From assembly GCF_024758725.1 (NCBI RefSeq), contig NZ_CP096972.1, forward strand, positions 292,001 to 356,000: 64,000 nucleotides of DNA, written 5' to 3'. Position numbers and translations under genes: made by a program. Below, one piece after another: positions 2,554-26,055 of this stretch. The notes under the pieces are model-generated. The model worked only from the letters and a program-made list of their open reading frames with translations, did not search any database and was not told the DNA's origin. Positions within the stretch are counted from its first letter, which is position 1. Every line of letters starts with the position of its first letter. Source of the DNA: Sphingomonas sp. SUN039 (GTDB lineage: Bacteria > Pseudomonadota > Alphaproteobacteria > Sphingomonadales > Sphingomonadaceae).

Positions 2554-2804
2554 TCGGATTCCCTTGGTGTAGGCGATGGCGTTGCCGACCCGCAGAATGC
2601 GGCCTTGGCGAAGAAGGTTGGCGAAGGAGGATAGTGACGCTGGTCCCCGAAACGGCAGTGCGAGCGAATCCCATCAGAACAGTGCGCGATGGAGCGGTTG
2701 TGGCCGCCGTCATTCGTAAAGTCCCTTTAATCTCGCGCTCAAAGCTGTAAAGCCCCCGCGTCGCCGTGTGGCGGCAATCAGCAAATGGGAAGAAGACAAC
2801 CGAT
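2554..2804. promoter_or_regulatory. divergent intergenic region between wbpG and wbpA
   Basis: About 250 bases between the minus-strand amidotransferase operon and the plus-strand dehydrogenase operon. It must contain promoters for both. I can point to the two ribosome sites (AAGGGAAT for wbpG and GGGAAGAAG for wbpA) but to no convincing -35/-10 pair or operator. Confidence 0.45.
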
Positions 2805-4073: not shown

Positions 4074-4078
4074 TCGAC

Positions 4079-5050: not shown

Positions 5051-5053
5051 GCA

Positions 5054-5965: not shown

Positions 5966-5967
5966 TC

Positions 5968-8317: not shown

Positions 8318-8336
8318 AGCGGCGCGGCGATTTTGC

Positions 8337-10747: not shown

Positions 10748-10891
10748 CGTATCTCTTTGAGTGCGGCGCAGGCGCGCAACGCGACCGCCTATAGCAATGA
10801 ATTGCGCGCGCAAAAGGAGAAAGGTAACTGGACACCGTGCAAGATTTCGGCTTGGGGGAGCGCCGAGCAAGACAAGGCCTTTTACCGGACT

Positions 10892-12070
10892 ATGTTGAAC
10901 ACCCCATTTGCGCCGTGGCCGAGCTTTTCCGAAGAGGAAGTGGAGGCAGTGGCGGGCGTCCTGCAATCGAACCGGGTCAATTACTGGACGGGCAACGAAG
11001 GTCGCGTGTTCGAGGCGGAATTCGCGGCTTGGACGGGCACGGATCACGCCATCGCGCTTTCGAACGGGACGCTGGCGCTCGATCTTGCTCTCAAGGGATT
11101 GGGGATCGGACCGGGTGACGAGGTGATCGTTACGCCACGGACATTCATTGCATCGGTTTCATCGGTCATTACCGCCGGCGCCCGACCGGTGTTTGCCGAT
11201 GTCGATGCCGACAGCGGCAACATTACGGCCGACACTATTGCCGCCGTAACGTCCGACTGCACGCGGGCCGTGCTGCCTGTGCATCTGGCGGGCTGGCCGT
11301 GCGACATGGGGCCAATCATGGCGCTTGCCGCTGTGCGTGATCTCAAGGTGATCGAGGATTGCGCGCAAGCCCATGGGGCAACGGTCGATGGCACACATGT
11401 AGGCGCGATTGGCGATGTCGGCGCATGGTCGTTCTGCCAGGACAAGATCATGACGACGGGCGGGGAAGGGGGCATGGTCACCTGCAACGATCCCGACGTC
11501 TGGGCCAAAATGTGGTCGTACAAGGATCACGGCAAGAGCTGGGATGCGGTCTACGAACGCACCCACCCGCCGGGTTTTCGCTGGGTGCACGAAAGCGTCG
11601 GGACCAACTGGCGCATGCTCGAGATGCAAGCGGCGATCGGCCGCATCCAGCTTCGCCGCATGACGGATTGGACCGCACGTCGCACGGCCATTGCCGTGCG
11701 TATTGCCGATGCGCTGCAGCCGTTTGCTGGGGCCGTGCGTGTCCCGATGCCGCGTGCCGGACTAACTCATGCCTTTTACCGGCTGTACGCCTATGTGCGC
11801 CCCGATAACCTTCAGCCGGGGTGGAGCCGCGACCGGATCGTTGCCGAGGTCGTCGCAGCGGGTGTTCCGCTGCTTCAGGGCAGCTGCTCGGAGGTCTATC
11901 TCGAAAAGGCGTTCGATGACACCGGCTTCCGCCCCGCGCGCCCGCTCGAAGTCGCCCGCGAGCTTGGCGCGACGAGCCTGATGTTCCTCACGCATCCCAC
12001 GCTGACCGATGCCGAGGTCGACAAATGCTGCGCCGTCGTGTCGCAAGTATTTGCGTCGGCGAGCCGGTAA
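10892..12070 (+). CDS. DegT/DnrJ/EryC1 sugar aminotransferase (second)
   Basis: A 392-residue PLP aminotransferase starting [16 protein letters not shown]. The PLP lysine is in [14 protein letters not shown] and the blocks [15 protein letters not shown] and [14 protein letters not shown] are typical. It opens a plus-strand run with the phosphoglycosyl transferase, formyltransferase, deacetylase and acetyltransferase. It probably makes an amino sugar (perhaps a 4-amino-4,6-dideoxy hexose) that the formyltransferase or acetyltransferase then caps. The 4,6-dehydratase and the keto-sugar source are not in the window, so the substrate is open. An in-frame extension far upstream overlaps wecB and is not used. 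Confidence 0.86.
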
Positions 12071-12113
12071 GCTTGGGGTTCGCCCAGTTCTCGACCGCCC
12101 GACGTCGTGCAGC

Positions 12114-12734
12114 ATGAAGGATGAGTCGCATTCCTATTTGAAGCGCGGTTTCGATCTTGTCGCTGGGGTGCTAGGCTTTGTCGCGCTTTCGCCGGTCATG
12201 ATCGCCGTGGCTCTGGCCGTCGTGGCGACGATGGGGATGCCGCTGTTTTTCGTGCAATCACGGAGCGGCCTTGGCGGCAAGGCGATCAACTTGCTGAAGT
12301 TTCGCAGCATGACCGACGCGCGCGACGCGAATGGCCAATTGCTTCCCGATGACCATCGGACGCCATCGGTAGGATTCCTGATCCGGCGTTATCGCGTAGA
12401 TGAGCTGCCCTCGCTGTTCAACATCGTCCGGGGCGACATTTCGCTGGTTGGCCCGCGCCCCCTTTTGAAAACGTCGGAAGCAAATGTTACCGGTGGCATG
12501 CGGCGACTGTCGGTCAAGCCCGGATTGACCGGGCTCTCGCAGATATCGGGCAACACATTGCTCAGCGAACATGAGAAGCTCGCCGTCGATCTCTACTATA
12601 TCGCGAACCGGTCGATGGCCTTCGACCTCAGAATTGTCTTGCAGACGCTGATGACGGTCATCCATGGTGAGCGACGAGACGAGGCGCTCATTTCGCGCGC
12701 GCTGGCCTTGATGGCGATGGACACCGCACGATGA
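12114..12734 (+). CDS. PglC/WcaJ-family phosphoglycosyl transferase
   Basis: A 206-residue monotopic phosphoglycosyl transferase. A single hydrophobic segment (about residues 14-36) with flanking KRGFDL is followed by the KFRSMTD block, the catalytic Asp-Glu dyad in YRVDELPSLFN, then VGPRPLL and KPGLTGLSQISG. It moves a phospho-sugar from a UDP-sugar to undecaprenyl phosphate at the inner face of the membrane and so starts repeat-unit synthesis. The length matches small PglC-type enzymes and not the large WcaJ/WbaP type with an N-terminal membrane domain. It overlaps the formyltransferase start by 4 bases (12731-12734). Confidence 0.9.
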   Translation: MKDESHSYLKRGFDLVAGVLGFVALSPVMIAVALAVVATMGMPLFFVQSRSGLGGKAINLLKFRSMTDARDANGQLLPDDHRTPSVGFLIRRYRVDELPSLFNIVRGDISLVGPRPLLKTSEANVTGGMRRLSVKPGLTGLSQISGNTLLSEHEKLAVDLYYIANRSMAFDLRIVLQTLMTVIHGERRDEALISRALALMAMDTAR

Positions 12735-13663
12735 CCCGATCCGCAATTGTTGTCGGGGCGGTGCAGTCTACCGCCATATTGCTCGAAGCGATGCGCGCGG
12801 CCGGCTGGCTGCCAAAGCTGATCATTACCGTGCCCGATGACCGCTCTGCGATGCATTCGGACTATGTCGATCTGGGTGCATGGGGTGCTGTGCATGGTGT
12901 CGAGGTCGCCAAAAGCCTGAACGTCGAGCAGCCCGATATTCTCGCCCGCGTACGCGATCTCGATCCCGACTTTATTTTCGTGGTCGGATGGTCGCGCCTT
13001 TGCGGTCCCACGTTTCAGGCGTGCGCGCGCAGCGGCGTGATGGGCTATCATCCGGCTCCGCTGCCGCGCCTGCGGGGTCGCTCTGCCTTGTCATGGACCA
13101 TCCTGCTGCAACTCGAACGGACGGCGGGGAGCCTGTTCTGGATCGATGAGGGCACCGATGCAGGCGCGCTGCTCGCGCAGGAGACGTTCGAGCTGGACGA
13201 ACGCGTGCGACTGGGCGAGCTGCTCGACTTGCACATGCTCGCGCTGAGGAAGATGCTGGACAGGGTATTGCCGAGGTTGATTGAGGGCGACGTCAGTGCC
13301 GCAGTGCAAGACGAAAGTGCGGCGACATATCTGTCGGCGCGGCGGCCCGAAGACGGCCTTATCAATTGGAATGATGACGCGCTTTCTATCGACCGGCTGA
13401 TCCGTGCAGTCGGCCGTCCCTATCCGGGCGCCTTTACATGGCTGGGTCGCAAAAAGGTCACCATCTGGGATGCCAAACCCGTCGCTCGGCCTGAGTGGAT
13501 CGCGCAGGTCGGGCAGATATTCGACTATGCAGCCGGCGCACCGATCGTCCGGTGCGGCAATGGAAGTTCGCTCTGCCTTGTGGAATATGACATCAGCGAA
13601 GGAGGGGAACCCGTCGAGTCCCGCCTGAAAGGGCAGCCACGTTTTCGGGAGAGATCGAATTGA
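12731..13663 (+). CDS. formyltransferase-fold sugar-modifying enzyme
   Basis: A 310-residue protein with the formyltransferase fold shared by methionyl-tRNA formyltransferase and sugar N-formyltransferases. The block GYHPAPLPRLRGRSAL aligns with NxHxSLLPxxRG; histidine and RGR are kept, but the catalytic-triad Asn position reads Gly. The third triad residue is in DEGTDAGALL. The C-terminal half resembles the OB-like domain of the family (YLSARRPEDGLINW). In context it probably formylates an amino sugar made by the preceding aminotransferase, using N10-formyl-tetrahydrofolate. A housekeeping fmt is unlikely because there is no def neighbour and the triad is changed. Confidence 0.78.
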   Translation: MTRSAIVVGAVQSTAILLEAMRAAGWLPKLIITVPDDRSAMHSDYVDLGAWGAVHGVEVAKSLNVEQPDILARVRDLDPDFIFVVGWSRLCGPTFQACARSGVMGYHPAPLPRLRGRSALSWTILLQLERTAGSLFWIDEGTDAGALLAQETFELDERVRLGELLDLHMLALRKMLDRVLPRLIEGDVSAAVQDESAATYLSARRPEDGLINWNDDALSIDRLIRAVGRPYPGAFTWLGRKKVTIWDAKPVARPEWIAQVGQIFDYAAGAPIVRCGNGSSLCLVEYDISEGGEPVESRLKGQPRFRERSN

Positions 13664-14334
13664 ATCGGGTTCTGGTTATCGCGCCGCATGCCGACGACGA
13701 GACGCTGGGAATGGGCGCAACGATTGCACGGTTCTCTGCCGAAGGTCGAGCGGTGACCGTTGCTATCATGACGGGGCATGGAAGCGAGCCGAACGTGCTC
13801 GGCCCGCCGAGTCTTTGGGACGGTATCCGCGCGGAAGCAGCACTCGCGTGCAAGGTGCTTGGCGTTCATGAGCTCGTGTTCGATGAATTGCCTGCCGTCG
13901 GTCTCGATCGCCATCCTACACATATTACCAACCGGCGTGTGGCCGATCTGGTCGCTCGTGTCGCGCCGACCGAACTCTACCTGCCGTACTATCACGATTT
14001 GCACGGCGACCACGGGGCGCTGGCCTATGCCGGTTTTGTCGCCACCAGACCCTATCAGTCGCACTCGGTAAAACGGGTGGCTATGTACGAAACGCCGACC
14101 GAAACACATTTGCTGCCACATTCGGTCGTCAACGCCTTTGCACCTACGCTCTTTGTCGATGTTTCGGAGTCGATCGGCAAAAAGACCGATGCCTGGAATT
14201 GTTATGCATCGCAGCATCATGCCGGTCATTCGCCGCGGTCTGCGGCGGCGATCGAGGCACTTGCCACATGGCGGGGCGCGTATATCGGCGTCGCGCACGC
14301 CGAGGCCTTTCATGTCGTGTATGACGCCCAATAG
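13660..14334 (+). CDS. PIG-L family deacetylase (LmbE-like)
   Basis: A 224-residue zinc-dependent N-deacetylase. The metal motif is the N-terminal APHADDETLG, and the third ligand is in the late YYHDLHGDHG block. Start is a TTG coupled to the preceding stop in a TTGA (13660-13663). PIG-L enzymes remove an acetyl group from an N-acetyl sugar. Its coupling to the formyltransferase suggests a deacetylate-then-formylate step on a nucleotide sugar or lipid-linked sugar; that order is inference. Confidence 0.85.
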   Translation: MNRVLVIAPHADDETLGMGATIARFSAEGRAVTVAIMTGHGSEPNVLGPPSLWDGIRAEAALACKVLGVHELVFDELPAVGLDRHPTHITNRRVADLVARVAPTELYLPYYHDLHGDHGALAYAGFVATRPYQSHSVKRVAMYETPTETHLLPHSVVNAFAPTLFVDVSESIGKKTDAWNCYASQHHAGHSPRSAAAIEALATWRGAYIGVAHAEAFHVVYDAQ

Positions 14335-14375
14335 GGGCCTCCCACGGGCGGCGACACACGCGGGGAGCCGCTGAA

Positions 14376-15029
14376 ATGGCAGAATTGATCGGCGTTTATG
14401 GTGCGGGCGGCTGCGGTCGCGGACTCATGCCGCTTGTGCGCGATCAATTTGCTGTGTCTGAAAATGTCGAACTAGTGTTCGTAGACGACGGGCAAGCGGG
14501 GCGGTTCGTCAACGGACAGCGGGTCGTGTCCTTCGCCGACTTTTGTGTGCGACCGGCGCGGGCCAAACGCATGGTCTTGGCCGTCGCCGACGGTGGTGTG
14601 AGGCGGCGGCTTGCTGTCGAATGCGAAGCGGCGTCGATCGACTTTTTCGAGGTGCGGGCGGCAAATGTCGTCATCATGGACGATGTGTCGATCGGGGTCG
14701 GCGCGGCACTGTCGCCCGGGGTCGTCGTCACCAGCAACATCCGGATCGGCCACCATTTCCACTGCAACATCGGCAGCATCGTCGAGCACGACTGCGTCAT
14801 CGGCGACTATGTCACCTTCGCACCCGGCGTCCGGTGCAATGGCAACATCGAGATCGGCGACGGTGCCTATATCGGCGCCGGAGCGATGATCAGGCAGGGC
14901 AGGCACAATGCGCGGCTGAAGATCGGAGCGGGCGCGACCATTGGAATGGGCGCGGTCGTGATCGCCGATGTGCCGGACGGAGTCACCATCGTGGGGAATC
15001 CGGGACGCCCGATTGCACGTTCGTCCTGA
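14376..15029 (+). CDS. PglD/NeuD-family sugar O/N-acetyltransferase
   Basis: A 217-residue protein with an N-terminal Rossmann-like domain (LIGVYGAGGCGRGLMPLV) followed by left-handed beta-helix repeats. The likely catalytic His is in EHDCVIGDY, as in PglD. Such enzymes use acetyl-CoA to acetylate a 4-amino sugar or, as in NeuD, assist sialic-type sugars. It ends the plus-strand run that begins with the second aminotransferase and converges with the unknown gene at 15052. Confidence 0.84.
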   Translation: MAELIGVYGAGGCGRGLMPLVRDQFAVSENVELVFVDDGQAGRFVNGQRVVSFADFCVRPARAKRMVLAVADGGVRRRLAVECEAASIDFFEVRAANVVIMDDVSIGVGAALSPGVVVTSNIRIGHHFHCNIGSIVEHDCVIGDYVTFAPGVRCNGNIEIGDGAYIGAGAMIRQGRHNARLKIGAGATIGMGAVVIADVPDGVTIVGNPGRPIARSS

Positions 15030-15051: not shown

Positions 15052-16311
15052 TTACAGACTTCGCTGTGGCAAACGCGCGAGCCGGAGGCCTGAGATGACT
15101 GCCTCGGTTGCGCTCGTGCTTCCACCACGGGTCGTAATGGTGACCGACTGGACGGGGCATGCCGCCGTGACATTGGCCGAAAAATCGGCCTTCACCCGTC
15201 CGACGGCGGTACTCGGCACGGACTGCGCTGCAATGACAGTCTGCCCGGTCTTCGCCTCGCAATTGAGATTGAAGGTAACCGAGCCACCTAGGGCCGACGT
15301 GGCGAATTCCACGACTGCGCTGACCTTGATCGGGCCGGCAGCCGCATAGAGCAGCTTTTGGCCCACGACCCCGCCGACATTGGGCTGCGCGAAAATTACG
15401 AGCCGATTTTCGCCTGCGCTGTCGGCTTCGCTTTCGATCTCCGCGCCCTTTTCGGCATCGACAAAAAACTTCCAGCTTATCGGCGCGCGATTCTTGTCCA
15501 GATTTGCCGGCGTCAGTTCAATCGTCGTCAGCGTCTGCGGGTCCGACCTTGGAATCAGGCGATAGACTGTGCGCGCCGCGTCGAAATCACGCACGACGGC
15601 GAGCCGGTCGAGCAGAAAACCCTCCCGACCGCGATACTCCGGTGCTTTGGGAAATCCGCCCGCGCGCTGGGCAAGATCGGCGAATACCGATGTTGCCTTG
15701 CTCTGGTCAATCGCAAAATCGAGAAACGTCGGCAGCCAGGGCGGCGGCTTGTGGAAATATGGCACGAACGCCTGGCGAATTTCGGCATCCTCCAACGCGG
15801 TGGTCAGGGTTGAAAAAAGCAGTGTGTGCGCTTCTTTCGTCGTCCGGATCGCAATATCGTATTGGTAGAGCGTCGCAGCCAGATTACCCGATTGCGAGGC
15901 ATCTTCGATATGCCACAGGTTGGTGGCAAGGTCCCTGCGTGTGGCTCGCTGTGCCAGCTGGAAAAAGGGTCTGGATCCGGCGGGGTTCCCCCGCAAATCG
16001 GCAACCAGCCCGAGAGCACGCAGCGCGGCGGGATTTACCGGGTCGCTGCGTAATGCCGCATGCGCCAATCGGTCGGCGGTACTGGCATCGGGCTTGCCCG
16101 TGGAAACGAGGATTTTGTTATTTGCGCTGGCGGCCAGCGCATAGCCATTCGACGGCAAAATGCCCAACCCCGCGCGTGAATTAGTGACGAGGGCGATGGT
16201 CGCAAGCGCATCACCGAACGACAGCGAGGCCATGGTCGCGGCGAGGACCGCCACGAGTCCGCGGAAGCCCAGTGTAATGTGCCGGCTGGGCCCTGCCGCA
16301 AGCGCACTCAC
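15052..16311 (-). CDS. unknown exported or membrane protein in the wza-wzc operon
   Basis: A 419-residue protein that I do not recognise. Residues 15-45 form one hydrophobic segment, so most of it is probably periplasmic. Residues about 75-190 look helical and tetratricopeptide-like (AAHAALRSDPVNPAALRALG style). The last 150 residues are beta-rich, with strands such as ISWKFFVDAEKGAEI and VSAVVEFATSALGGSVTF, resembling a carbohydrate-binding jelly roll. Its start overlaps the wzc stop in an ATGA (16308-16311), so it is co-translated with the export kinase and probably acts in polymer assembly or export. Confidence 0.72.
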   Translation of the reverse strand: MSALAAGPSRHITLGFRGLVAVLAATMASLSFGDALATIALVTNSRAGLGILPSNGYALAASANNKILVSTGKPDASTADRLAHAALRSDPVNPAALRALGLVADLRGNPAGSRPFFQLAQRATRRDLATNLWHIEDASQSGNLAATLYQYDIAIRTTKEAHTLLFSTLTTALEDAEIRQAFVPYFHKPPPWLPTFLDFAIDQSKATSVFADLAQRAGGFPKAPEYRGREGFLLDRLAVVRDFDAARTVYRLIPRSDPQTLTTIELTPANLDKNRAPISWKFFVDAEKGAEIESEADSAGENRLVIFAQPNVGGVVGQKLLYAAAGPIKVSAVVEFATSALGGSVTFNLNCEAKTGQTVIAAQSVPSTAVGRVKADFSANVTAACPVQSVTITTRGGSTSATEAVISGLRLARLPQRSL

Positions 16312-18500
16312 GCCGATTGGTCGGTGCTGCCATAGCCATAGCCGTAGCCATAGCCATAACCGTAACCGGCGTGGTTCGCCTTGAGCTTGGTCAGCACGGC
16401 ACCGGCAATCTGGGCGTGCACCGCTCTCAGTCGGTCGATCGACGTCTTGAGCCCGCGGACGGCGACCCCTTCGACCTCGATGATGAAAACACAGCCTTCG
16501 ACGGCGCGGGCGAGCAACGGCGCGTCGGCCAGGCCGAGCACGGGTGGCGAATCGATCACGACATGATCGAACTGGCCGAGGAGCTGGGTCACCAGCATCT
16601 TCATGCGATCGCTGCTGAGCAATTCGGCAGCGCTCGGCGGGGTCGGACCGGCCGGAAGCAACTGCAGACCGCGCGAGTTCGTTGGCTTCAGATACTTCGC
16701 CCAGTCATTGTCGCCCGCAAGGATGTTGCTGAGGCCCGACGCATTGCCGACTTCGACAAAGCTATGCAGCGACGGGGAGCGCATGTCGGCATCGATCAGC
16801 AGGACATTTTTCCCCGTGCGACCAAGCACCGTTGCCAACGCAAGACTGGTCGTACTCTTCCCTTCGGCAGGCCGGGTACTGGTTATCATCAGCGAGCGTG
16901 GCACGCCGTGATCGGTCGAAAACGCCAGGCTGGAACGGATTGAAATATATGCTTCGGACAGCGACGACTTCGCATCGTTCAGCATCGCTATGACGTCGGC
17001 ATCGGGCGCATCGGGCACGCTGCCCAGCAAGGGGATGTGCAACAGGCGATTGACGTCGCCCGGATCGCGCAGTCCCTCGTCGATCTGCTCGAGCGCGAAT
17101 GTCGCAGCGCCCGCAACGACGAGTCCTGCGAGCAGGGCCAACGCCATGTTGACCGGCAGTTTCGGGGATGAAGGCGAGTCCGGCACATCGGCGGCGTTGA
17201 CGATGGAAATGTTATTCGCCGCAACACCCGCGACGCCGATTTCCTTGTAGCGCTGGAGCAGACCGTCATACAGTTCGCGGTTCGTGTCGGCTTCGCGCTG
17301 ATAAATATTATACTGAATGCTGTCGCGCTGCTGGACATCCATCTGCTCGCGCAGTCCGTCGACCCGTGCTCTGAGCCCAGCTTCACGCTTTGCAGCTTCC
17401 GAATATTCGCTCGACCGCGTCGATTGAACGCGCGAAACCTCACGCGCAATACTGGTGTCTAGCGCGCGCACCTGTTCGGCTAACGCACGTGCCGCAGGAT
17501 AACCCGGCTCGAACTGAACCATCAACTTGGCATATTCCGATGCGACTTCCGCGCGCTTTTGGCGCAGCGACGAGATTGCGACGTTGCTCAACGCCTCCGC
17601 ATTCGCCCCGTTGCCGGAATTTTCGCGTGAACGGCTTTCGGCGTTGATCCGGTCTGCTGTCGCTTTGGCCAAAGCATCGTTAAGCGCCTCGAGATCGCTC
17701 GACACAAGAGTCCGTTCGACCTTCGTCTTGCCATCGGCGCTTTCGGATTTTCCCAGCGCAACGATGCCCTTTTGCGACGCATAGTTGACCAGATCGCGTT
17801 CCGAGGATTCGAGCCGGGCGCGGAGCTCGGCGAGCCTTCCTTCGAGGAACCTGCGCGCATCAGCGGTCGACTCGAACCGGCGGTCCATGCTCGACTGGAT
17901 ATATTGTTGCGACCAGACATTGGCGATCTGCGCCGAGATCTTCGGTGACGCGCTGGTATAGACGATATCGATCAGACTCGACCCGCGAATGGGCACGATC
18001 GAGATATTACCGATAAGCAGATTGACGGCGAGCTTTTCGCGGTTCGCCCGTTCGGCCGGCGAGAGCGCCCGATCGCTCTTGTTGAAGAACATGGACTCGT
18101 TCGTCGTGTCCACGCCGTGCGCTGCCATAAAATCGCGGTTCGAGGAGAGCCGCAAGGTTTTCGATACACGTTGGGCCAGCGAGCGGTCCGAAAGCAGTGA
18201 ATATTGGGTCTGGTAGAATTCGAGCTCGCGTCCGACTCCTTCGGACTCGACGCCTTCGACCTTCGTGATGTTCTTCTGTTCGCGACTTATCTCGATACGA
18301 GCCGCAGCCGAATATTTGGGCGTGGCGAGCAGTGTCGCGATCAGCCCTATGACTAGCGATGCCGCGACGATGCCAGCGATCAACCATTTCCACCGCAATG
18401 CCACCTGCCAATATTGCAGCAGAATCGGCGGGGCTATGCCGGGTCGCTGTTGCGCCATAGCCGGCGAATTCATCATCTCGATCGGTACTGAGTTTGGCAT
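16308..18500 (-). CDS. wzc: Wzc-type polysaccharide co-polymerase with tyrosine autokinase domain
   Basis: A 730-residue BY-kinase. A Wzz-like N-terminal part has transmembrane segments near residues 38-58 and 455-475, with a long coiled periplasmic region between. The cytoplasmic kinase has Walker A STRPAEGKSTT (about 545), Walker A' LLIDADMRSP (about 567) and Walker B VIDSPPVLG (about 650). The C-terminus ends in a tyrosine cluster GYGYGYGYGYGYG, the expected autophosphorylation tail. It should control chain length and export together with Wza. It lies 37 bases after wza in the same operon. Confidence 0.92.
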   Translation of the reverse strand: MPNSVPIEMMNSPAMAQQRPGIAPPILLQYWQVALRWKWLIAGIVAASLVIGLIATLLATPKYSAAARIEISREQKNITKVEGVESEGVGRELEFYQTQYSLLSDRSLAQRVSKTLRLSSNRDFMAAHGVDTTNESMFFNKSDRALSPAERANREKLAVNLLIGNISIVPIRGSSLIDIVYTSASPKISAQIANVWSQQYIQSSMDRRFESTADARRFLEGRLAELRARLESSERDLVNYASQKGIVALGKSESADGKTKVERTLVSSDLEALNDALAKATADRINAESRSRENSGNGANAEALSNVAISSLRQKRAEVASEYAKLMVQFEPGYPAARALAEQVRALDTSIAREVSRVQSTRSSEYSEAAKREAGLRARVDGLREQMDVQQRDSIQYNIYQREADTNRELYDGLLQRYKEIGVAGVAANNISIVNAADVPDSPSSPKLPVNMALALLAGLVVAGAATFALEQIDEGLRDPGDVNRLLHIPLLGSVPDAPDADVIAMLNDAKSSLSEAYISIRSSLAFSTDHGVPRSLMITSTRPAEGKSTTSLALATVLGRTGKNVLLIDADMRSPSLHSFVEVGNASGLSNILAGDNDWAKYLKPTNSRGLQLLPAGPTPPSAAELLSSDRMKMLVTQLLGQFDHVVIDSPPVLGLADAPLLARAVEGCVFIIEVEGVAVRGLKTSIDRLRAVHAQIAGAVLTKLKANHAGYGYGYGYGYGYGSTDQSA
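16331..16366 (-). repeat. six tandem hexanucleotides encoding the Wzc tyrosine tail
   Basis: Six in-frame 6-base units (CATAGC-like, with variants CGTAGC, CATAAC and CGTAAC) encode alternating Tyr-Gly at the C-terminus of Wzc. Each copy gained or lost would add or remove one phosphorylatable tyrosine without breaking the frame. Units are imperfect copies, so the tract is older than a recent slippage event. Confidence 0.85.
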
Positions 18501-18537: not shown

Positions 18538-19281
18538 TCAGTTTCTCAACAGCAGGATGAGGGGGGTCGCGACGGCCGGAATAACCTGCAGGGCGTCCTT
18601 GAACAGACGACGTGCACTTGAATCCCCGACCACGACCACATCATTGGCGAAGATCTCGGGATCTTCATAGTTGCCGCGACGGATGGCTTTCAAATTATAC
18701 AGCGCGGCCATCGGCTGGCCCTTGACAGTTCTAAACACGACAACATCATCGAGCTTAGCGAATTCGGAAACACCTTTGGCTCGCGCGACGGCGCGCATAA
18801 GCGTGAGTTTGCCGACGACGGGATAGAGCCCGGGCTCGCGCACCTCGCCATCGACAGTGACTACCTGGCTGACCGTCTCGCGCAGATTGACGGTCACTTG
18901 GGGGTCACGGACGAACCGACCGCGTAGGCGTTCTTCGAGGATATCCTCAAGCTCGCCCGGCGTCTTGCCAGCTGCCTCGACAACGCCGGCGAGCGGAAAG
19001 GAAATTCTGCCGCCCGCGTCGGTTTGCACTTGCTTGCGGCTCAGATCCTCGATTCCGAATACGTCAATCGTCAGCTGGTCGAAGGGACCGATCAGATAAG
19101 GGCGGTTCTGGCCGAACAAATCGCTCCGTTCGGGCGGCGGAAGCACATTGGTTGGCGCGACCTGCACCTGTCCAGCGGCCTGCCCACCGCCCCGCGCGCC
19201 ACCGGCCGAACCCAGTTTCGACGGGCCGACGCACGCCGATAGGCAGGCGATGCCTACAATCAAACACCAGCGGAAGGACAT
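18538..19281 (-). CDS. wza: Wza/GumB-type outer-membrane polysaccharide export lipoprotein
   Basis: A 247-residue export protein. It has a signal peptide with lipobox LSAC (Cys17), a Gly/Ala-rich linker, a Poly_export domain from about residue 60 (YLIGPFDQLTIDVFG) and a SLBB-like domain (VTVDGEVREPGLYPV). A hydrophobic C-terminus, PAVATPLILLLRN, could cross the outer membrane. The length is that of the short GumB/BexD type, not the 380-residue E. coli Wza. It forms the export channel that works with the downstream Wzc. Confidence 0.9.
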   Translation of the reverse strand: MSFRWCLIVGIACLSACVGPSKLGSAGGARGGGQAAGQVQVAPTNVLPPPERSDLFGQNRPYLIGPFDQLTIDVFGIEDLSRKQVQTDAGGRISFPLAGVVEAAGKTPGELEDILEERLRGRFVRDPQVTVNLRETVSQVVTVDGEVREPGLYPVVGKLTLMRAVARAKGVSEFAKLDDVVVFRTVKGQPMAALYNLKAIRRGNYEDPEIFANDVVVVGDSSARRLFKDALQVIPAVATPLILLLRN

Positions 19282-19335: not shown

Positions 19336-20739
19336 TTACTTTTCTGACCCTAGCGGGGATTTCGCTGGCAATCGAAACGGTACGTTCATCCAAAGTGCTG
19401 CCATCACTGCCAGCACCATGATCGATGGGGTGCGTAGCGGATAATCGCTGAAGCTGCCAATAGCGAACAGCAAAAGCACGGTCGATCCCAGCCTTGCGTA
19501 GATGTCGTCGGTTGAATTCGCGCCACGACCCAGCCACACTTTGGCGCTAACCATTGCCCAGGCCACGACGATGACCGCTAGCACCGCGCCGCCGAGCAAG
19601 CCGCCGGTCATCAGCATTTCGAGCCAATCATTGTGGGCATGGTTGATATAGCTCAAGCCGAGCATGTCGTGCGCCTCTTGAATCTGGTACACCTCGACAA
19701 AGGAACCCATTCCCGAGCCGAACGGGAAATAGCTCCGTGCTGCCTCGAGCGTCGGCATCCACAGCGAGAAGCGCAGATCGTCGAGCTGGCCGGGCGCGGC
19801 AAGGCGCTCGATCGACATAGCGCGCGAAAACATAATCGAGAGCATGACAAGGACGCACGCCGCGACTGCGGCGCCGACATAGGCTAGGTAGCTCTTCATG
19901 CCGGAGCGTTTTTTTACCGCGACACGTATTGATCGTGTGCCCAGCCGGTACGCAGCGCCTCCGGCCAAGATGCCGACCAGTGCCACTGCCAGCCCGGAGC
20001 GCGACCCCGTGATGAGGATGAACGGAATCATCGCAATGGCAACCACAAGGGCGATCCATCCGAACAGCGACTGCGCTTGCGGGGTCCGTGCGTAGACTGC
20101 AGCCAAAGTACCGATCATGACGAACAGGCCCGCGAGGAAATAGGCATGATGATTGCGGTTGACGAACAGCCCTATCGCCGAGCCATCATTCGAAAGTTCG
20201 TGAAAATACAACGGACTGCTCGATGTCCCGACCGCCTGCAGCAGCCCAATCAGCGCGCTCACGAGGCCGAGAATAAGGACAATCGGCAATATCCGCTGCT
20301 GCTCTTCACGAGGGATAGAGATGCCCAGCAGAAAAGCGGCTAGGGGTACGCTGAGCGAAAAGAGGGCATTTCTGGTCGCGGAGGGCACCATCGTGATACA
20401 TCGCCACGCGTCGATGCCTGCGGCCTTGTCGATGTCGGCGATGAGCCCGTGCCCGGGAAGCAGATGAGCCAATCCGGGCGGCAGGGGTATGAGTTGCAAC
20501 AAGGGCAAAGCGATGATCGCGCCGCCAAGCCAGGCGAGTGTCTTGTAACTGCCCAGCGCACCTTTGGGCAGCGCGATTATGGCAGCGCCGCACACCAGAA
20601 TGGCGACCGGTCGCAGGACCAACAGGTAGATGCTGTCGGCGCGCGACGCGCCGCCGATCAGGAAGACAAAAACGATAAAGGCTGCGAGGAACCAAAAGCG
20701 CAACGAAAGGTGTTTGTCGGACTTGGTTCGACCAATCAC
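19336..20739 (-). CDS. O-antigen ligase/polymerase-family membrane protein (Wzy/WaaL)
   Basis: A 467-residue polytopic membrane protein with about ten hydrophobic segments. A large periplasmic loop contains the Wzy_C signature around NHAHNDWLEMLMTGG, and an earlier NRNHHAYFLAG block is also typical. The family includes Wzy polymerases, WaaL ligases and protein O-glycan ligases, which cannot be separated by eye. First gene of the minus-strand operon with wza, wzc and the unknown gene, so a polymerase of the local polysaccharide is most likely. Confidence 0.84.
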   Translation of the reverse strand: MIGRTKSDKHLSLRFWFLAAFIVFVFLIGGASRADSIYLLVLRPVAILVCGAAIIALPKGALGSYKTLAWLGGAIIALPLLQLIPLPPGLAHLLPGHGLIADIDKAAGIDAWRCITMVPSATRNALFSLSVPLAAFLLGISIPREEQQRILPIVLILGLVSALIGLLQAVGTSSSPLYFHELSNDGSAIGLFVNRNHHAYFLAGLFVMIGTLAAVYARTPQAQSLFGWIALVVAIAMIPFILITGSRSGLAVALVGILAGGAAYRLGTRSIRVAVKKRSGMKSYLAYVGAAVAACVLVMLSIMFSRAMSIERLAAPGQLDDLRFSLWMPTLEAARSYFPFGSGMGSFVEVYQIQEAHDMLGLSYINHAHNDWLEMLMTGGLLGGAVLAVIVVAWAMVSAKVWLGRGANSTDDIYARLGSTVLLLFAIGSFSDYPLRTPSIMVLAVMAALWMNVPFRLPAKSPLGSEK

Positions 20740-20905: not shown

Positions 20906-21451
20906 ATGAGTACCGAAACCACGACGCTTGCTGCAGGATGTTTCTGGTGCATCGAGGCAGTGTTCGATGGCCTTGCCGGGATCGACAGTGTCGAGAGCGG
21001 ATATATTGGCGGGCATGTGCCTGACCCGACTTACAAAGAGGTCTGCGGCGGGGCGACCGGCCATGCCGAGGCCGTGCGCATAACATTCGATTCCGACGTG
21101 GTAAGCTACGACGAAATTCTCGACATTTTCTTTGAGATTCACGACCCAACGCAGCTCAACCGGCAAGGCAATGATGTCGGCACGCAATACCGATCGGCGA
21201 TCTTTCCGCATTCGCCCGCGCAGGAAGCTGCAGCCCGCGCTGCTATCGTCCGCGCGCAAGCTGTACGAAATACCCCGGTCGTCACCACCGTCGAGCCGCT
21301 GTCCGACTGGTATGTCGCCGAAGACTATCACCAGGAATATTTCGAACGAGAAGGGGCCGCAAACCCCTATTGCCAGATCGTGGTCGCACCAAAACTCGCG
21401 AAATTTCGCCAGCGGCATGCCGCGCGGCTGAAAGACGGGGTCACGGCGTAG
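20906..21451 (+). CDS. msrA: peptide methionine (S)-S-oxide reductase
   Basis: A 181-residue MsrA. The catalytic cysteine is in AAGCFWCIEAVF, with ESGYIGGHVPDPTYKEVCGGATGH and DPTQLNRQGNDVGTQYRSAI as family blocks. It repairs oxidised methionine. The ATG at MSTETTTLAAG is chosen because the family domain begins right after; longer in-frame versions reach into the promoter region shared with the divergent polymerase gene. It lies 110 bases upstream of the ligase operon and may or may not share its transcript. Confidence 0.93.
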   Translation: MSTETTTLAAGCFWCIEAVFDGLAGIDSVESGYIGGHVPDPTYKEVCGGATGHAEAVRITFDSDVVSYDEILDIFFEIHDPTQLNRQGNDVGTQYRSAIFPHSPAQEAAARAAIVRAQAVRNTPVVTTVEPLSDWYVAEDYHQEYFEREGAANPYCQIVVAPKLAKFRQRHAARLKDGVTA

Positions 21452-21561: not shown

Positions 21562-22779
21562 ATGACCGACCGCTCCAACGTCGCGTTGCCAGCGCCCGTG
21601 CCTGGCTTTCTGCGGAGCGACGTCGCAGCAAAGCTCGCCTATCTCGATCGCCGCGATGTATCGGCGAGGCTCGCGCCCGACGGCGCTTCGGTCAGCTTTA
21701 GCGTGACCGACATTCCCGACGCCGACCGTGAGCAGATTGCCAACCGTGTCCTGAAGCTCGTTCACGACATGACGACCGATGCGTTCGAACCCGAAATCGA
21801 AGTTATGGAGGTCCGCGCCGGCGGGTCGGCCTTCCGCGACGATCCGATGCCCGCGCTCGCTGCACGGGGGGAGGTGTTTCGGGAAGGTGACGGTTATTAT
21901 TCGCTCGGGCCGCAACTTTCCGCGGTTATCGCCCATGTCGATGATCGCTTGGTGCAAGTCGCGGCGGCGATGTCCGCGCGTACCTATCGATTCCCGGCGC
22001 TGATCTCGCCCGCATATCTGGAACGCGTCCAGTATTTCAAAAACTTTCCGCACTCGCTGAGTTTCGTAACCCACCTCAACGCCGACATAGATGACATCCA
22101 GAGCTTCAGTTCCGACGCCTGTTGCATCGACGGCCGTGTCCATGCCGATCCTGCCGTGTTCGCGCGGGCCCCGGCCATGCTGTCGCCGACGGTGTGCCAT
22201 CATCTTTACGCTATGCTCGAAAATCAACGGATCGAGGCACCCGGCCTCGTTGCCACGGCGCACGGGCATTGTTTCCGCTTCGAAGCAAGCAACATGTACG
22301 CGCTCGAGCGGGCGTGGAACTTCACGATGCGCGAAATCATGTTCGTCGGCGATGAAGACTTCGTTGCCGCGCAGCTCGAGCATGTTCGTGCCGCTGTCGC
22401 ACCGATCTTGGCAGAACTCGATCTGAGCTACAGCGTGGAGACGGCGAACGACCCGTTCTTCGTCGATACGTTCCGCGATCAGGCCGCTTATCAGGCGGCG
22501 TTCGAACTCAAGCAAGAAGTGCGCGCCGACATCCCCTATCGGGGCAAGTCGCTGGCCATCGCGTCGTTCAACCGGCACGGAAATTTTTTCGGGCGAACGC
22601 TCGATATTCGCGATGCCAACGGCGAGTTCGCTTGCACCGGATGTTTTGGCGCGGGGTTCGAACGCATCGCCTTTGCGCTGGTCGCGCAACACGGACCCGA
22701 TCCACAGGGGTGGCCGTCCGCCATACGCGCCGTTGCCGATGGCGTGACCCCAGAATTATCGACAGGAGGCAGCGCGTGA
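21562..22779 (+). CDS. class II synthetase-like amino acid:[carrier protein] ligase
   Basis: A 405-residue protein resembling the catalytic core of archaeal-type seryl-tRNA synthetase without a tRNA-binding arm. Family members known from Bradyrhizobium and Agrobacterium load glycine or alanine onto a carrier protein. Motif 2 is around FRFEASNMYALERAWNFTMRE (residues 238 on) and motif 3 is GAGFERIAF (363-371). Cys212, Glu241 and Cys361 are plausible zinc ligands. About 80 N-terminal residues exceed the usual length. The stop overlaps the carrier gene's GTG start (22776-22779). It takes the DltA role in the proposed polymer aminoacylation system. Confidence 0.82.
   Translation: MTDRSNVALPAPVPGFLRSDVAAKLAYLDRRDVSARLAPDGASVSFSVTDIPDADREQIANRVLKLVHDMTTDAFEPEIEVMEVRAGGSAFRDDPMPALAARGEVFREGDGYYSLGPQLSAVIAHVDDRLVQVAAAMSARTYRFPALISPAYLERVQYFKNFPHSLSFVTHLNADIDDIQSFSSDACCIDGRVHADPAVFARAPAMLSPTVCHHLYAMLENQRIEAPGLVATAHGHCFRFEASNMYALERAWNFTMREIMFVGDEDFVAAQLEHVRAAVAPILAELDLSYSVETANDPFFVDTFRDQAAYQAAFELKQEVRADIPYRGKSLAIASFNRHGNFFGRTLDIRDANGEFACTGCFGAGFERIAFALVAQHGPDPQGWPSAIRAVADGVTPELSTGGSA
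22764..22769 (+). promoter_or_regulatory. strong ribosome-binding site for the carrier-protein gene
   Basis: A perfect AGGAGG lies six bases ahead of the GTG at 22776, inside the end of the ligase gene. It fixes the GTG as the start of the carrier protein and suggests the carrier is made in excess over the ligase. Confidence 0.75.
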
Positions 22780-23018
22780 CCGAAGACGAGATATATGCCG
22801 GCATAGCGACTGTGTTCAGGCAGCAGCTAAAAATGCCAGACCTGATGGTTTCGCCCGGCATGACGGCGGGCGATGTCAAAGGATGGGATAGTTTGACCCA
22901 TATTCGCCTAATCCTCGCAGTAGAAAAGCAGTTCGGCGTGAAATTCCGCACGAGCGAGGTTTCCAGCTTTCGCAACGTCGGCGATCTGGCGGAATTGGTG
23001 CGGGCCAAGATCGGTTGA
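22776..23018 (+). CDS. dedicated acyl carrier protein (DltC-like role)
   Basis: An 80-residue carrier protein. The phosphopantetheine serine is in GWDSLTHIRLI, about residue 38, and the four-helix pattern with the terminal DLAELVRAKIG is normal. A GTG start overlapping the ligase stop is supported by AGGAGG upstream. It should carry glycine, alanine or a related amino acid as a thioester from the upstream ligase to the membrane acyltransferase. It needs a phosphopantetheinyl transferase encoded elsewhere. Confidence 0.88.
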   Translation: MTEDEIYAGIATVFRQQLKMPDLMVSPGMTAGDVKGWDSLTHIRLILAVEKQFGVKFRTSEVSSFRNVGDLAELVRAKIG

Positions 23019-23605
23019 GCGATTTCGGTACAGCGCGCTCGACCATCGTTCAGGACTTGAGCTTCGAACAGCGGCTGGTTGCCGCGCCCCTGCTCATCGA
23101 ATCGCTTGCTGGCTATTATGCTCTGCTCGCCCTTGCCCGAGACGATTTGATCGAGGCGCTCGTCGCCGAAATGACCGAAACCACGACCGAGCTCGGCAAT
23201 GGCGTGGCCCTGATCGATGCCGATGACGTGCTCGTCGGGGTGTTCTGCGGATATCCTGCCGAAGAGCTGCCGCCCCGGCAGGTTGCCAGTCTCTACCACC
23301 TCGTGTCGAGGGTCGATGCGGATACGGGATTGCAGATACTGGAAGCTAGCGCGCGCCACGCTGCTGGCATTGAGCGCGTCCCGGATAATAGCTACTACAT
23401 GGCGCGGATGGGTATCGCGCCAGCGTACCGGGGCAGGGGAGTGTCGTCCTATTTCTATCGGGTCGCGCGGGCGGCGGCAGCGGGTCGTTTGTTGTCGCTG
23501 CATGTCGAGGCGGCGAACGGCGGGGCTGTCGGCCTCCATCATCGCGAGGGACTCTCTCTCTACGGGGCGAGCGACGGACCATTCCTGTGCATGACCGGAC
23601 CTTGA
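23015..23605 (+). CDS. GNAT-family N-acetyltransferase
   Basis: A 196-residue GNAT. The acetyl-CoA loop is APAYRGRGVSSYF and the later strand is LLSLHVEAANGGAVGLHHREGL. The TTG start is coupled to the carrier stop as TTGA (23015-23018). Its position between the carrier and the MBOAT suggests that it acetylates the amino group of the carrier-bound amino acid, or of the finished ester, giving an N-acyl-aminoacyl substituent. No dlt operon I know of has this gene. Ribosomal-protein acetylation is possible but fits the coupling poorly. Confidence 0.82.
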   Translation: MSDFGTARSTIVQDLSFEQRLVAAPLLIESLAGYYALLALARDDLIEALVAEMTETTTELGNGVALIDADDVLVGVFCGYPAEELPPRQVASLYHLVSRVDADTGLQILEASARHAAGIERVPDNSYYMARMGIAPAYRGRGVSSYFYRVARAAAAGRLLSLHVEAANGGAVGLHHREGLSLYGASDGPFLCMTGP

Positions 23606-23621
23606 GCCGGGTGGCCAGCGC

Positions 23622-24800
23622 ATGATTTTTCAACTTGAGTTCCGTTTCTGGATCTGCGCGTTCGTCATCTTCGTGCTGATCCGGTTGCGCCCGCCGATGC
23701 CGCCATCGACGTGGTTTGCCCTGCTCAACCTAATCGCGTTGTTCCTGCTTCTCGGCCTTGCAGCAACGCTGGCGATTGCGGGGTTCGCCGCGCTGTTGTG
23801 GCTCTGCCTTTTTGCCGCCCGCAGGCAAGACGGGCGCACAGCCGGTGCCGTGCTGCTTGTTGCTGGTGCGGCAGCAGTCGGTTGCGTCATCGTCTGGCAG
23901 AAGGCGATGTTCGAATTCACCGCAGCCGGTGCCACGGTTCCTTGGCCAAGATCGACGAAATTGCTGGCGTTGGTCTCGTTTTCTTATGTCGCACTTCGCG
24001 CTTGGGACGCGATCTCGGCAGTCCGTGACGGGGCTCCGTTGCTCGACCCCCTAGCGCTGAGCGGCTATCTCGCGCCGTTCTTCATGATGCCTGCCGGGCC
24101 AGTCAATGTGTATCGCGACCATCTGGGTGTCGATGCGCGAGGGGCCTTGTCGGCACCCGACTGGCGCGCCTTTCTCGGCGGTGTCCAGACCATCGTCACA
24201 GGGCTGTTCGTGAAATTCGTTCTTGCCGAGCTTCTTCGCCTGTTTGTCGTTGGCGTGAACGGCGACTGGCCGAGCGGAGGTCTGGGCGATACCTTAATAT
24301 CGTTCATTTACATCTATTTGGATTTTGCTGGATATTCGTTGATCGCGCTCGGCGTCGGGCGGCTTCTGGGCGTGCCCACCCCGGTCAATTTCGATCGTCC
24401 CTTGCTTGCGACCTCGCTGACCGACTTTTGGAGCCGCTGGCATATGTCGCTGGGCAACTGGATACGACGGCATCTGTATCTGCCAATCCAGCTCAGCTTC
24501 ATGCGCCGGTTTTCGGGCGGCAGCGAATATGTCGTCAACGGGGTCAGCCTGATGGTGGCATTCACCTTTGTCGGCCTGTGGCACCGCTTCACCTTGCCAT
24601 TCCTCGTCTGGGGTATCGTTTTCGGCTGTCTGCTGGCCCTCGAAAAATATGTGCGCGATACGGTCGGTGTGGCGTTACTCGAACGGCACCCGGGCGTCGG
24701 GATATGGCTGCGGATCATCGGACCCTTTTACGTGCTGGCGACGATTGTCGTCATGCTCCACCTCACCGCGATGCAGCAGATGGTCGGGACCGCACGATGA
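23622..24800 (+). CDS. MBOAT acyltransferase (DltB/AlgI-like)
   Basis: A 392-residue polytopic protein of the membrane-bound O-acyltransferase family. Family blocks are LDFAGYSLIALGVGRLLG, FWSRWHMSLGNWIRRHLYLP (His274) and FVGLWHRFTLPF with the probable catalytic His321. It should accept the acyl group from the carrier thioester on the cytoplasmic side and move it across the membrane, as DltB does. It lies 16 bases after the GNAT and its stop overlaps the microprotein start (24797-24800). Its C-terminus lacks a FxYxxF tail, in keeping with a separate shuttle protein. Confidence 0.9.
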   Translation: MIFQLEFRFWICAFVIFVLIRLRPPMPPSTWFALLNLIALFLLLGLAATLAIAGFAALLWLCLFAARRQDGRTAGAVLLVAGAAAVGCVIVWQKAMFEFTAAGATVPWPRSTKLLALVSFSYVALRAWDAISAVRDGAPLLDPLALSGYLAPFFMMPAGPVNVYRDHLGVDARGALSAPDWRAFLGGVQTIVTGLFVKFVLAELLRLFVVGVNGDWPSGGLGDTLISFIYIYLDFAGYSLIALGVGRLLGVPTPVNFDRPLLATSLTDFWSRWHMSLGNWIRRHLYLPIQLSFMRRFSGGSEYVVNGVSLMVAFTFVGLWHRFTLPFLVWGIVFGCLLALEKYVRDTVGVALLERHPGVGIWLRIIGPFYVLATIVVMLHLTAMQQMVGTAR

Positions 24801-24922
24801 AGCTGTTCGTGCCGACTCCCCTTCGAATCGTCGCCCGCATCGCCTGGATTTTGGCGATGCTGAGCGCGGTCGTCGTCATGACCCAAACGGCGAGCACCCC
24901 GTTTGTGTACGGCGCGTTCTGA
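24797..24922 (+). CDS. DltX-like membrane microprotein with C-terminal acyl-shuttle motif
   Basis: A 41-residue protein with a basic N-terminus, one hydrophobic segment (about residues 11-28) and the C-terminal hexapeptide FVYGAF. Charge distribution predicts the C-terminus outside the cytoplasm. In the Gram-positive Dlt pathway the microprotein DltX ends in a FxYxxF-type hexapeptide whose tyrosine carries the acyl group between DltB and DltD; Tyr38 would do so here. It overlaps the MBOAT stop (ATGA) and the SGNH start (TGATG), so the three are translationally coupled. The gene is easily missed because of its size. Confidence 0.85.
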   Translation: MKLFVPTPLRIVARIAWILAMLSAVVVMTQTASTPFVYGAF

Positions 24923-26055
24923 TGCGCTGGGCGGGTTTGAGCGAGGCAATACGCGCCGCAACGATGCTAGTTGTTGCGCTCTTAGCGATGGCGGCTTTTG
25001 CCGCAACGCTCCGCTTCGTCGCGGGGTCGCAGTTGCTTGGCACCTATGTGACGCGGTTCGAGTTCGTGCCGGGTCAGTGGTTCGCCAGAAGCGTTATCGA
25101 TCTGAAACGTGACCCCGCCAGCACCTGTGTCGTTCTGGGGGCCTCGAACGGTCGCGAGGGCTTCGACCCGGCAATCCTCGCGCGCAACGCGCCCGGCACT
25201 GCATTCGTGAACGCGGCCACGACGGGCGGCAACAACGAGGTTGTCGATATTCAATCGACGATTCTTGAGCGTTATGGCCTACATCCGCGCTGTGCGATTG
25301 CCGCGTTCAGCACCTGGACGATGTTCCGCGACGGCAGCCCGGACCTCGCCGCCGAGGAATATCTGGCATTGCTCGATTGGGAAGGGGTGCTCTCGCTGAC
25401 CTCTCGTCCGCTGCTGACGCGCAAAGGGCATCATATCGCTGCAGGTCTCATGCTCCCGCTTCGCACCAATGCCCGCCAGCTCAACCTGCTAATGCGCGTA
25501 AGCGTGTCGCATGCGCGCAAGCGCGTGCTGGGGCCCCTCCCGCTCAACCGCTACGAAAGTTACGCAGGGGAATTGCAGTCCCCCGATACCTATAATTACC
25601 AGCACACCCCGTCGCATTTGCTGGCCGACTGGGACAGGCTGGTTGCCCGGTCACGACCCTTTTACCCGGCCTCGCGCTACGGAGGCGCGATGCAGGAATC
25701 CGCGATGCGCCGGTCGCTCGATCGCCTGTTGCGGTTGACCGGCGGCCATGTCGCAATCGTCGTGACGCCGCAGACGCCTATTCTCGATCCAGCGTCGCGG
25801 GCTGCCAAACCGCATTTCGACCGCGTCGTGCAGGCGTATGCCGGCCAGGTTGCCCTGATCGATTGTACGGCGCTGCGCGATATGGCGCTTTTTGTGGATG
25901 AGGGGCATCTAACCGCCGACGGACGTGCCATCCTTTCCGCTGAAGTGGGGCAGATCGTTGCCGCCGGGGTCATGTCTGGCCGGAAGGGGTCATCAGCCCA
26001 TTGTACCGCTTCACCGTCCAGTCCGGCCGCTAAATCTGTCGCGAATAGCGACTGA
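24922..26055 (+). CDS. membrane-anchored SGNH transferase (DltD/AlgJ-like role)
   Basis: A 377-residue protein with one N-terminal membrane segment (about residues 10-36) and a periplasmic SGNH-hydrolase-like domain. The nucleophile is Ser75 in VLGASNGREGFD and the Asp-His pair is Asp326/His329 in DEGHLTADGRA. This is the arrangement of DltD and the alginate acetylation proteins, which move an acyl group onto a polymer. It completes the six-gene operon. The stop lies 26 bases inside the convergent epimerase gene, so the last eight or so codons are shared DNA. Confidence 0.82.
   Translation: MRWAGLSEAIRAATMLVVALLAMAAFAATLRFVAGSQLLGTYVTRFEFVPGQWFARSVIDLKRDPASTCVVLGASNGREGFDPAILARNAPGTAFVNAATTGGNNEVVDIQSTILERYGLHPRCAIAAFSTWTMFRDGSPDLAAEEYLALLDWEGVLSLTSRPLLTRKGHHIAAGLMLPLRTNARQLNLLMRVSVSHARKRVLGPLPLNRYESYAGELQSPDTYNYQHTPSHLLADWDRLVARSRPFYPASRYGGAMQESAMRRSLDRLLRLTGGHVAIVVTPQTPILDPASRAAKPHFDRVVQAYAGQVALIDCTALRDMALFVDEGHLTADGRAILSAEVGQIVAAGVMSGRKGSSAHCTASPSSPAAKSVANSD

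Follow-up and report, generated by a model that had tools for sequence, protein, structure and literature searches.

A probable Dlt-like surface-polymer aminoacylation operon with an aaRS-type loading enzyme in Sphingomonas sp. SUN039

The six-gene operon and the adjoining polysaccharide genes

The window, i.e., the whole stretch of DNA that was analysed, comprises 64,000 nucleotides of the genome of Sphingomonas sp. SUN039 (contig NZ_CP096972.1, positions 292,001 to 356,000). It contains an operon of six genes, all of which overlap or are at most 16 nt apart:

21562..22779, + strand: putative amino acid:[carrier protein] ligase, class II aaRS-like, long form, 405 aa; ATG start, TGA stop
22776..23018, + strand: carrier protein, 80 aa; GTG start, TGA stop; phosphopantetheine serine S39 (WDSL)
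23015..23605, + strand: GNAT-family acyltransferase, 196 aa; TTG start; PF00583 above the cut-off
23622..24800, + strand: DltB-like MBOAT, 392 aa; PF03062 with 50.8 bits; His 274 (RWH) and His 321 (GLWH) conserved
24797..24922, + strand: DltX-like microprotein, 41 aa; one predicted transmembrane helix; C-terminus FVYGAF; candidate shuttle tyrosine Y38
24922..26055, + strand: DltD-like SGNH acyltransferase, 377 aa; N-terminal transmembrane segment; G-A-S75 and D326-x-x-H329 motifs

The ligase and carrier genes overlap by 4 nt, as do the carrier and GNAT genes (TTG at 23015), and the sequence AGGAGG is present at 22764-22769, six bases 5′ of the carrier GTG. After a gap of 16 nt (23606-23621) the MBOAT gene follows, which overlaps the microprotein gene by 4 nt (ATGA at the MBOAT stop), and the microprotein gene overlaps the SGNH gene by 1 nt (TGATG at the SGNH start). 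The ligase-carrier pair had been recognized in the initial annotation and was verified, as both proteins matched family profiles. It had also been claimed that gene overlap ties the pair to membrane acyl-transfer genes. The linkage within one operon was indeed found, but the carrier gene overlaps the GNAT gene and not the MBOAT gene. The 41-aa microprotein between the MBOAT and the SGNH protein was absent from that earlier finding.

A gene for the peptide methionine sulfoxide reductase MsrA is localized 110 nt upstream of the ligase gene on the same strand (20930-21451). In Sphingopyxis bauzanensis, its place just upstream of the operon is taken by a UDP-glucose/GDP-mannose dehydrogenase-family gene.

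The region from 15 to 21 kb of the window harbors Wza/Wzc/Wzy polysaccharide genes:

16308-18500: Wzc-type kinase (Pfam Wzz/GNVR/AAA_31)
18538-19281, - strand: Wza-type export protein (Pfam Poly_export)
19336-20739, - strand: Wzy/O-antigen ligase-type polymerase (Pfam Wzy_C)

Sugar genes are found from 2.7 to 15 kb, including genes for UDP-sugar dehydrogenases, a 2-epimerase, DegT aminotransferases, a formyltransferase and a PIG-L deacetylase. More specifically, the region 2766-15029 contains WbpA/B/D/E/I-type genes together with genes for the sugar formyltransferase, the PIG-L deacetylase, an initiating sugar transferase and a hexapeptide acyltransferase. This gene content suggests a polymer with a di-N-acylated uronic acid and an N-formyl sugar.

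The putative loading enzyme and its N-terminal extension

For aaRS-like amino acid:carrier ligases structures and in vitro activities are known, and the known enzymes of the family load glycine or alanine. To our knowledge, no physiological destination has been agreed upon. Members such as Bll0957 were reportedly characterized by Mocibob et al. in 2010 and 2013. A comparison of the window ligase with the NCBIfam amino acid--[ACP] ligase model NF005479 yielded an E-value of 5e-47 and 160 bits. This is below the equivalog cut-off of 357 bits, and therefore the protein is a relative of the NF005479 family and not a member of that equivalog. The solved structure of Bll0957 (3mey) was matched with an E-value of 1.4e-32 by the single sequence and of 5e-58 by the profile, and a SerRS-type class II catalytic core related to that of Bll0957 is present. 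With the AlphaFold model (pLDDT 82), Foldseek retrieved 2cim and 4h2s, the latter over 317 columns. The residues C212, E258 and C361 align with the Cys/Glu/Cys zinc-ligand positions of the family, including Bll0957, and we take these positions to be zinc-binding in this ligase family. In an alignment of 22 relatives, C212 and C361 are invariant and E258 is nearly invariant. The conservation of these residues makes a small alpha-amino acid a plausible substrate. SerRS and the glycine and alanine enzymes have a common core, and beyond the zinc-ligand positions the sequence does not decide between glycine, alanine and serine; judging from the known enzymes, it is a reasonable guess that glycine or alanine would be the most likely substrate. 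The motif around the zinc-ligand glutamate is M-W-E in the Magnetococcales ligases (L010-L015) and in locus L004 and M-R-E in most other ligases. Because the arginine beside the glutamate is replaced in the Magnetococcales ligases, their chemistry may differ.

The initial annotation had located the extra length of the ligase at the N-terminus, and this was in agreement with the profile alignment, in which residues 102-391 correspond to positions 29-314 of the 318 positions of NF005479 and about 73 more residues lie ahead. The catalytic core begins near residue 100. Bll0957 aligned to the ligase with an offset of 56-61, within the crystallised chain of 346 aa. In the AlphaFold model the N-terminal unit is a small alpha/beta structure (strands 3-8, 34-37, 43-48 and 81-85; helices 15-25 and 53-71) with pLDDT values of roughly 77-88. 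Positions 42-86 of the ligase profile align with the SerRS of M. kandleri from residue 130, continuous with the core alignment, and therefore a truncated remnant of the tRNA-binding N-terminal domain seems to have been kept. The NCBIfam model of archaeal-type SerRS matches the ligase from residue 25. From these alignments, the likeliest origin of the extension is a truncated SerRS N-terminal domain, which the long subfamily would have retained and which would be reduced in enzymes of the Bll0957 type.

The extension is not special to this operon, because Chloroflexi and Magnetococcales, too, have long-form ligases with this extension, and no MBOAT gene lies near them. For the same reason an adaptation to this pathway was rejected, and the extension is no marker of the pathway. 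It marks a widespread subfamily of long-form ligases.

Transfer genes and their linkage to the ligase

Ligase loci for comparison were collected in a genome scan and from a sample of genomes, which gave 51 non-redundant loci. Loci referred to below include L002 from Sphingopyxis bauzanensis, L126 from a second Sphingopyxis genome and L003 from a Rhodospirillaceae MAG. The carrier protein reached 30.6 bits with PF00550 (cut-off 20.8); its orthologues adjoin the ligase in L002 and L126, and the arrangement is changed in L003. One ACPS-type phosphopantetheinyl transferase was found in the source genome. L002 and L126 encode GNAT orthologues in the corresponding position, and thus in all three full operons the GNAT gene lies between the carrier and MBOAT genes, whereas no GNAT match was found in the L003 set. 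The motif A region contains an R-G-R-G loop of the pyrophosphate-binding type, which suggests the use of acyl-CoA and which is generic to GNATs. GNAT genes also follow or lie near long-form ligase genes in Chloroflexi and in some Magnetococcales (L014 and L098) without MBOAT. In the Chloroflexi loci L004-L009 and L018 carrier, long-form ligase and GNAT are consecutive in seven of seven cases, and no MBOAT was found; L004 has capsule-type and AAC(3)-like genes as neighbors. An N-aminoacyl-sugar pathway is possible for these Chloroflexi loci. At another locus (L046:1237-9646) a long-form ligase and a carrier lie within a nonulosonic-acid-like cluster (NeuB-like and PIG-L-like genes, identified by eye).

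The only PDB sequence matches of the MBOAT were DltB structures (6bug/8jem, E 5e-25), and the histidines of the RWH and WH motifs were aligned. With the NCBIfam DltB model TIGR04091 it reached 143 bits, below the cut-off of 375; this model is not diagnostic of DltB, because MBOATs with a fused motif match as well. The protein ends with QQMVGTAR and thus has no C-terminal shuttle motif, which is encoded on a separate ORF. This ORF encodes the microprotein MKLFVPTPLRIVARIAWILAMLSAVVVMTQTASTPFVYGAF of 41 aa, which has a single hydrophobic helix with basic residues N-terminal to it. Due to the positive-inside rule, its C-terminus is predicted to be outside. The end FVYGAF is an exact match to FxYxxF-COOH. 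The window contains 1241 stop-terminated frames with a length of 25 codons or more, and none of them other than the microprotein ends with this motif. In L002 a homologue of 36 aa was found at the same place (E 7e-7), and L126 has a homologue at that place, too; both end with FVYGGF. Within the last 24 codons, window and L002 differ by 11 synonymous and 8 replacement changes. The microprotein of L003 ends with VAYQQF, with a degenerate first motif position. A PDB search with the microprotein sequence gave no match. A chance ORF was rejected based on the rarity of the motif, its conserved position in both Sphingopyxis genomes and the synonymous bias. The FxYxxF motif is the "acyl shuttle" of DltX: its tyrosine receives the acyl group from the MBOAT and passes it to the serine of the SGNH protein (PMC12148441). 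DltX is the microprotein form that works with the carrier-fed MBOAT DltB, whereas carrier-independent MBOATs have a fused motif and no separate DltX-like microprotein (PMC12148441). A similar end, YIYAMF, which is close to FxYxxF, was observed in a one-transmembrane protein of 54 aa in a Magnetococcales locus (L098:12005-12169, - strand). It belongs to DUF5989 (PF19451, function unknown), and the neighboring gene codes for a carbamoyltransferase that has an SxtJ-like tail. Perhaps DUF5989 proteins serve as shuttle microproteins for acyl-type groups of another kind.

The SGNH protein had no sequence match in Pfam, NCBIfam or PDB, and therefore a structure model was made. The model, which was built from three sequences (pLDDT 59, low TM), retrieved DltD structures as all five best PDB matches (E 2e-3 to 3e-2), which gives weak but specific support for a DltD identity. 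The Asp and His of the SGNH motif, and also the Gly, are kept in L002 and in the distant L003. Ser75 is kept in L002, and in L003 the serine is placed elsewhere in a shaky alignment.

An MBOAT gene was found near the ligase gene in seven of the 51 non-redundant loci (window included), and the distance was always within 1 kb. On the ligase tree, a quick tree with SH-aLRT support only, this linkage required at least four changes (mean of shuffled data 6.6), which are forced by supported branches. The adjacent MBOAT is the sole one of the genome in four cases, i.e., the window genome, Sphingopyxis bauzanensis, the Rhodospirillaceae MAG and the alphaproteobacterial genome G766, while genome G579 has two ligases, each next to its own MBOAT. 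Frequency, number of changes and sole MBOATs thus bear out that the ligase-carrier pair is tied to membrane acyl-transfer genes, and the DltX-like shuttle microprotein needed for such a role is encoded in the window as well. The ligases of the window, L002 and L003 form one clade (SH-aLRT 99), and its set consists of ligase, carrier, MBOAT, microprotein and SGNH protein. The order of the six genes is identical in the two Sphingopyxis genomes, and in L003 it is rearranged to carrier, microprotein, SGNH, MBOAT, ligase. Distant ligases in L045, L047, L048 and L110, from three more genomes, adjoin longer MBOATs with a fused motif, which end with FIYFRF, FLYYQF, FIYFRF and FIYFQF, respectively. SGNH-like genes (identified by eye from G-S-S or G-N-S motifs) adjoin the ligase or MBOAT gene in L045, L048 and L110. 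As ligases adjoin both sets with a separate microprotein and MBOATs with a fused end, both known forms of the shuttle motif occur together with the ligase. None of the short-form ligase loci examined had MBOAT, microprotein or SGNH genes nearby.

In two cases the set of ligase, carrier, SGNH and MBOAT is accompanied by a ketoacyl-synthase-III-like gene (L003:9225-10256 and L110:4011-5021, the latter in the Magnetococcales genome G874), which suggests a second use of the aminoacyl-carrier.

When 398 genomes from the family were sampled, the ligase had a close relative only in the window's own genome, and one further genome contained a distant, short-form ligase. Relatives were present in two of 398 genomes of the order and in two of 80 Sphingopyxis genomes and were absent from six further genomes of the genus. 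This rare and patchy distribution fits with horizontal spread or with loss. Phage and plasmid origins were considered and rejected: a search for close relatives revealed none in viral contigs, and ligase relatives on plasmids had less than 60% identity, with no MBOAT match covering 80% of the query.

Proposed surface-polymer aminoacylation and its alternatives

In Gram-positive bacteria the Dlt system (DltA, DltB, DltC, DltD, DltX) is responsible for the D-alanylation of teichoic acids. The presence of the FVYGAF microprotein together with the MBOAT, the carrier and the SGNH protein means that the set matches DltB/C/D/X, with DltA replaced by an aaRS-like ligase. The likeness includes a carrier, a short DltB-like MBOAT, a separate one-transmembrane FxYxxF microprotein and a DltD-like SGNH protein with an N-terminal transmembrane segment. 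In contrast, the loading enzyme is class II aaRS-like and not an adenylation-domain enzyme like DltA, the MBOAT is below the DltB equivalog cut-off, and there is an additional GNAT, for which the Dlt scheme has no role. A DltA adenylation-domain ligase is not encoded in the operon, and the 20 AMP-binding matches of the genome are all outside the window. The host is a Gram-negative bacterium, belonging to the same family as Sphingopyxis, and presumably has no teichoic acid. Without DltA and teichoic acid the operon does not fall under a strict definition of Dlt. Taken together, the operon probably encodes a Dlt-like system for the aminoacylation of a surface polymer, with an aaRS-type loading enzyme in the place of DltA.

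By homology, the ligase would activate a small amino acid with ATP and load it on the phosphopantetheine at S39 of the carrier. By analogy to Dlt, the aminoacyl-carrier would dock at the cytoplasmic side of the MBOAT, which would move the aminoacyl group across the membrane to Y38 in the extracytoplasmic FVYGAF end of the microprotein. From this shuttle tyrosine the group would be passed to Ser75 of the SGNH protein and then form an ester with a hydroxyl of an exported polymer. The acceptor is probably the neighboring Wza/Wzc/Wzy polysaccharide, as judged from gene proximity. It is tempting to speculate that the GNAT N-acylates the carrier-bound aminoacyl group prior to export.

Several known systems share parts of this scheme. 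Bll0957-type ligases have the SerRS-like core, the three aligned zinc-ligand residues and an adjacent carrier gene in common with the window ligase, which differs by its longer N-terminus, a score below the NF005479 cut-off and the link to MBOAT, microprotein and SGNH genes. PatA/PatB, which O-acetylate peptidoglycan, use the same relay from an MBOAT via an FxYxxF tyrosine to an SGNH serine, but PatA makes use of acetyl-CoA and has the motif at its own C-terminus instead of a carrier and a separate microprotein. In Vibrio cholerae, AlmE/AlmF/AlmG put glycine on lipid A, another case of a Gram-negative bacterium in which glycine is loaded on a carrier to modify the surface; however, AlmE belongs to the adenylation-domain enzymes, and AlmG is not part of an MBOAT/SGNH relay. 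A paper from 2025 presents acylation with a carrier plus a microprotein as a peculiarity of Dlt within the MBOAT-SGNH systems (PMC12148441). The literature searched, with incomplete coverage, contained no earlier description of the present gene set.

Two alternative explanations center on the GNAT. Because it is absent from L003 and because GNAT-ligase loci without MBOAT exist, both N-acylation of the aminoacyl-carrier and a separate transfer to a sugar are possible roles. In the latter case ligase and carrier would feed the GNAT, an N-aminoacyl sugar would be formed on a cytoplasmic nucleotide-sugar, and MBOAT, microprotein and SGNH protein would move another acyl group, e.g., acetyl from acetyl-CoA. 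The overlap of the carrier and GNAT genes would fit with this, as would the MBOAT-free loci of the seven Chloroflexi and of L014/L098, which have a GNAT after or near the ligase and lie in polysaccharide contexts (capsule synthesis, polysaccharide deacetylase), and also the amino-sugar, PIG-L deacetylase and formyltransferase genes of the polymer cluster in the window. However, the L003 set comprises ligase, carrier, microprotein, SGNH and MBOAT and lacks a GNAT match, the linkage of ligase and MBOAT occurs on at least four branches, mostly without a GNAT, and the microprotein is separate, whereas the motif is fused in carrier-independent MBOATs (PMC12148441). We regard such a GNAT-fed sugar modification as unlikely.

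The other role would leave the relay intact. The GNAT would acetylate the aminoacyl group on the carrier at its amine, and the MBOAT, the microprotein and the SGNH protein would then transfer an N-acyl amino acid, e.g., an N-acetyl amino acid, as an ester. The invariable position of the GNAT gene between carrier and MBOAT in the full operons and the R-G-R-G loop argue for this, while its absence from L003 and the generic nature of the loop argue against it. This variant is thus a tentative option, and its probability overlaps with that of the Dlt-like system, because it is a subset thereof with a different final product. Much less probable, and in our view improbable altogether, is that a small diffusible metabolite or a modified lipid, and not a decorated polymer, is the product of the cassette. 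The ketoacyl-synthase-III-like genes beside the sets in L003 and L110 would be in accordance with such a product, and L003 has radical SAM-like and asparagine-synthase-like genes as well; yet genes of this kind are missing from the window operon, which adjoins Wza/Wzc/Wzy, and from both Sphingopyxis operons.

The Dlt-like reading, a surface polymer aminoacylated with the help of an aaRS-type ligase, can be extended in a more speculative manner. Possibly, aaRS-like ligases have been repeatedly recruited for acylation via MBOAT, shuttle and SGNH protein and represent a distinct Gram-negative branch of Dlt-type systems, and in the present operon the GNAT would perhaps give rise to an N-acylaminoacyl ester on an exopolysaccharide; this is a conjecture that we put forward with reservation. 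The recurrent linkage to MBOAT, shuttle and SGNH genes offers a destination for aaRS-like ligases, namely the aminoacylation of surface polymers. It suggests that unrelated adenylating folds can replace each other at the loading step in Dlt-type systems, and acylation with a carrier plus a microprotein would be extended to Gram-negative bacteria.
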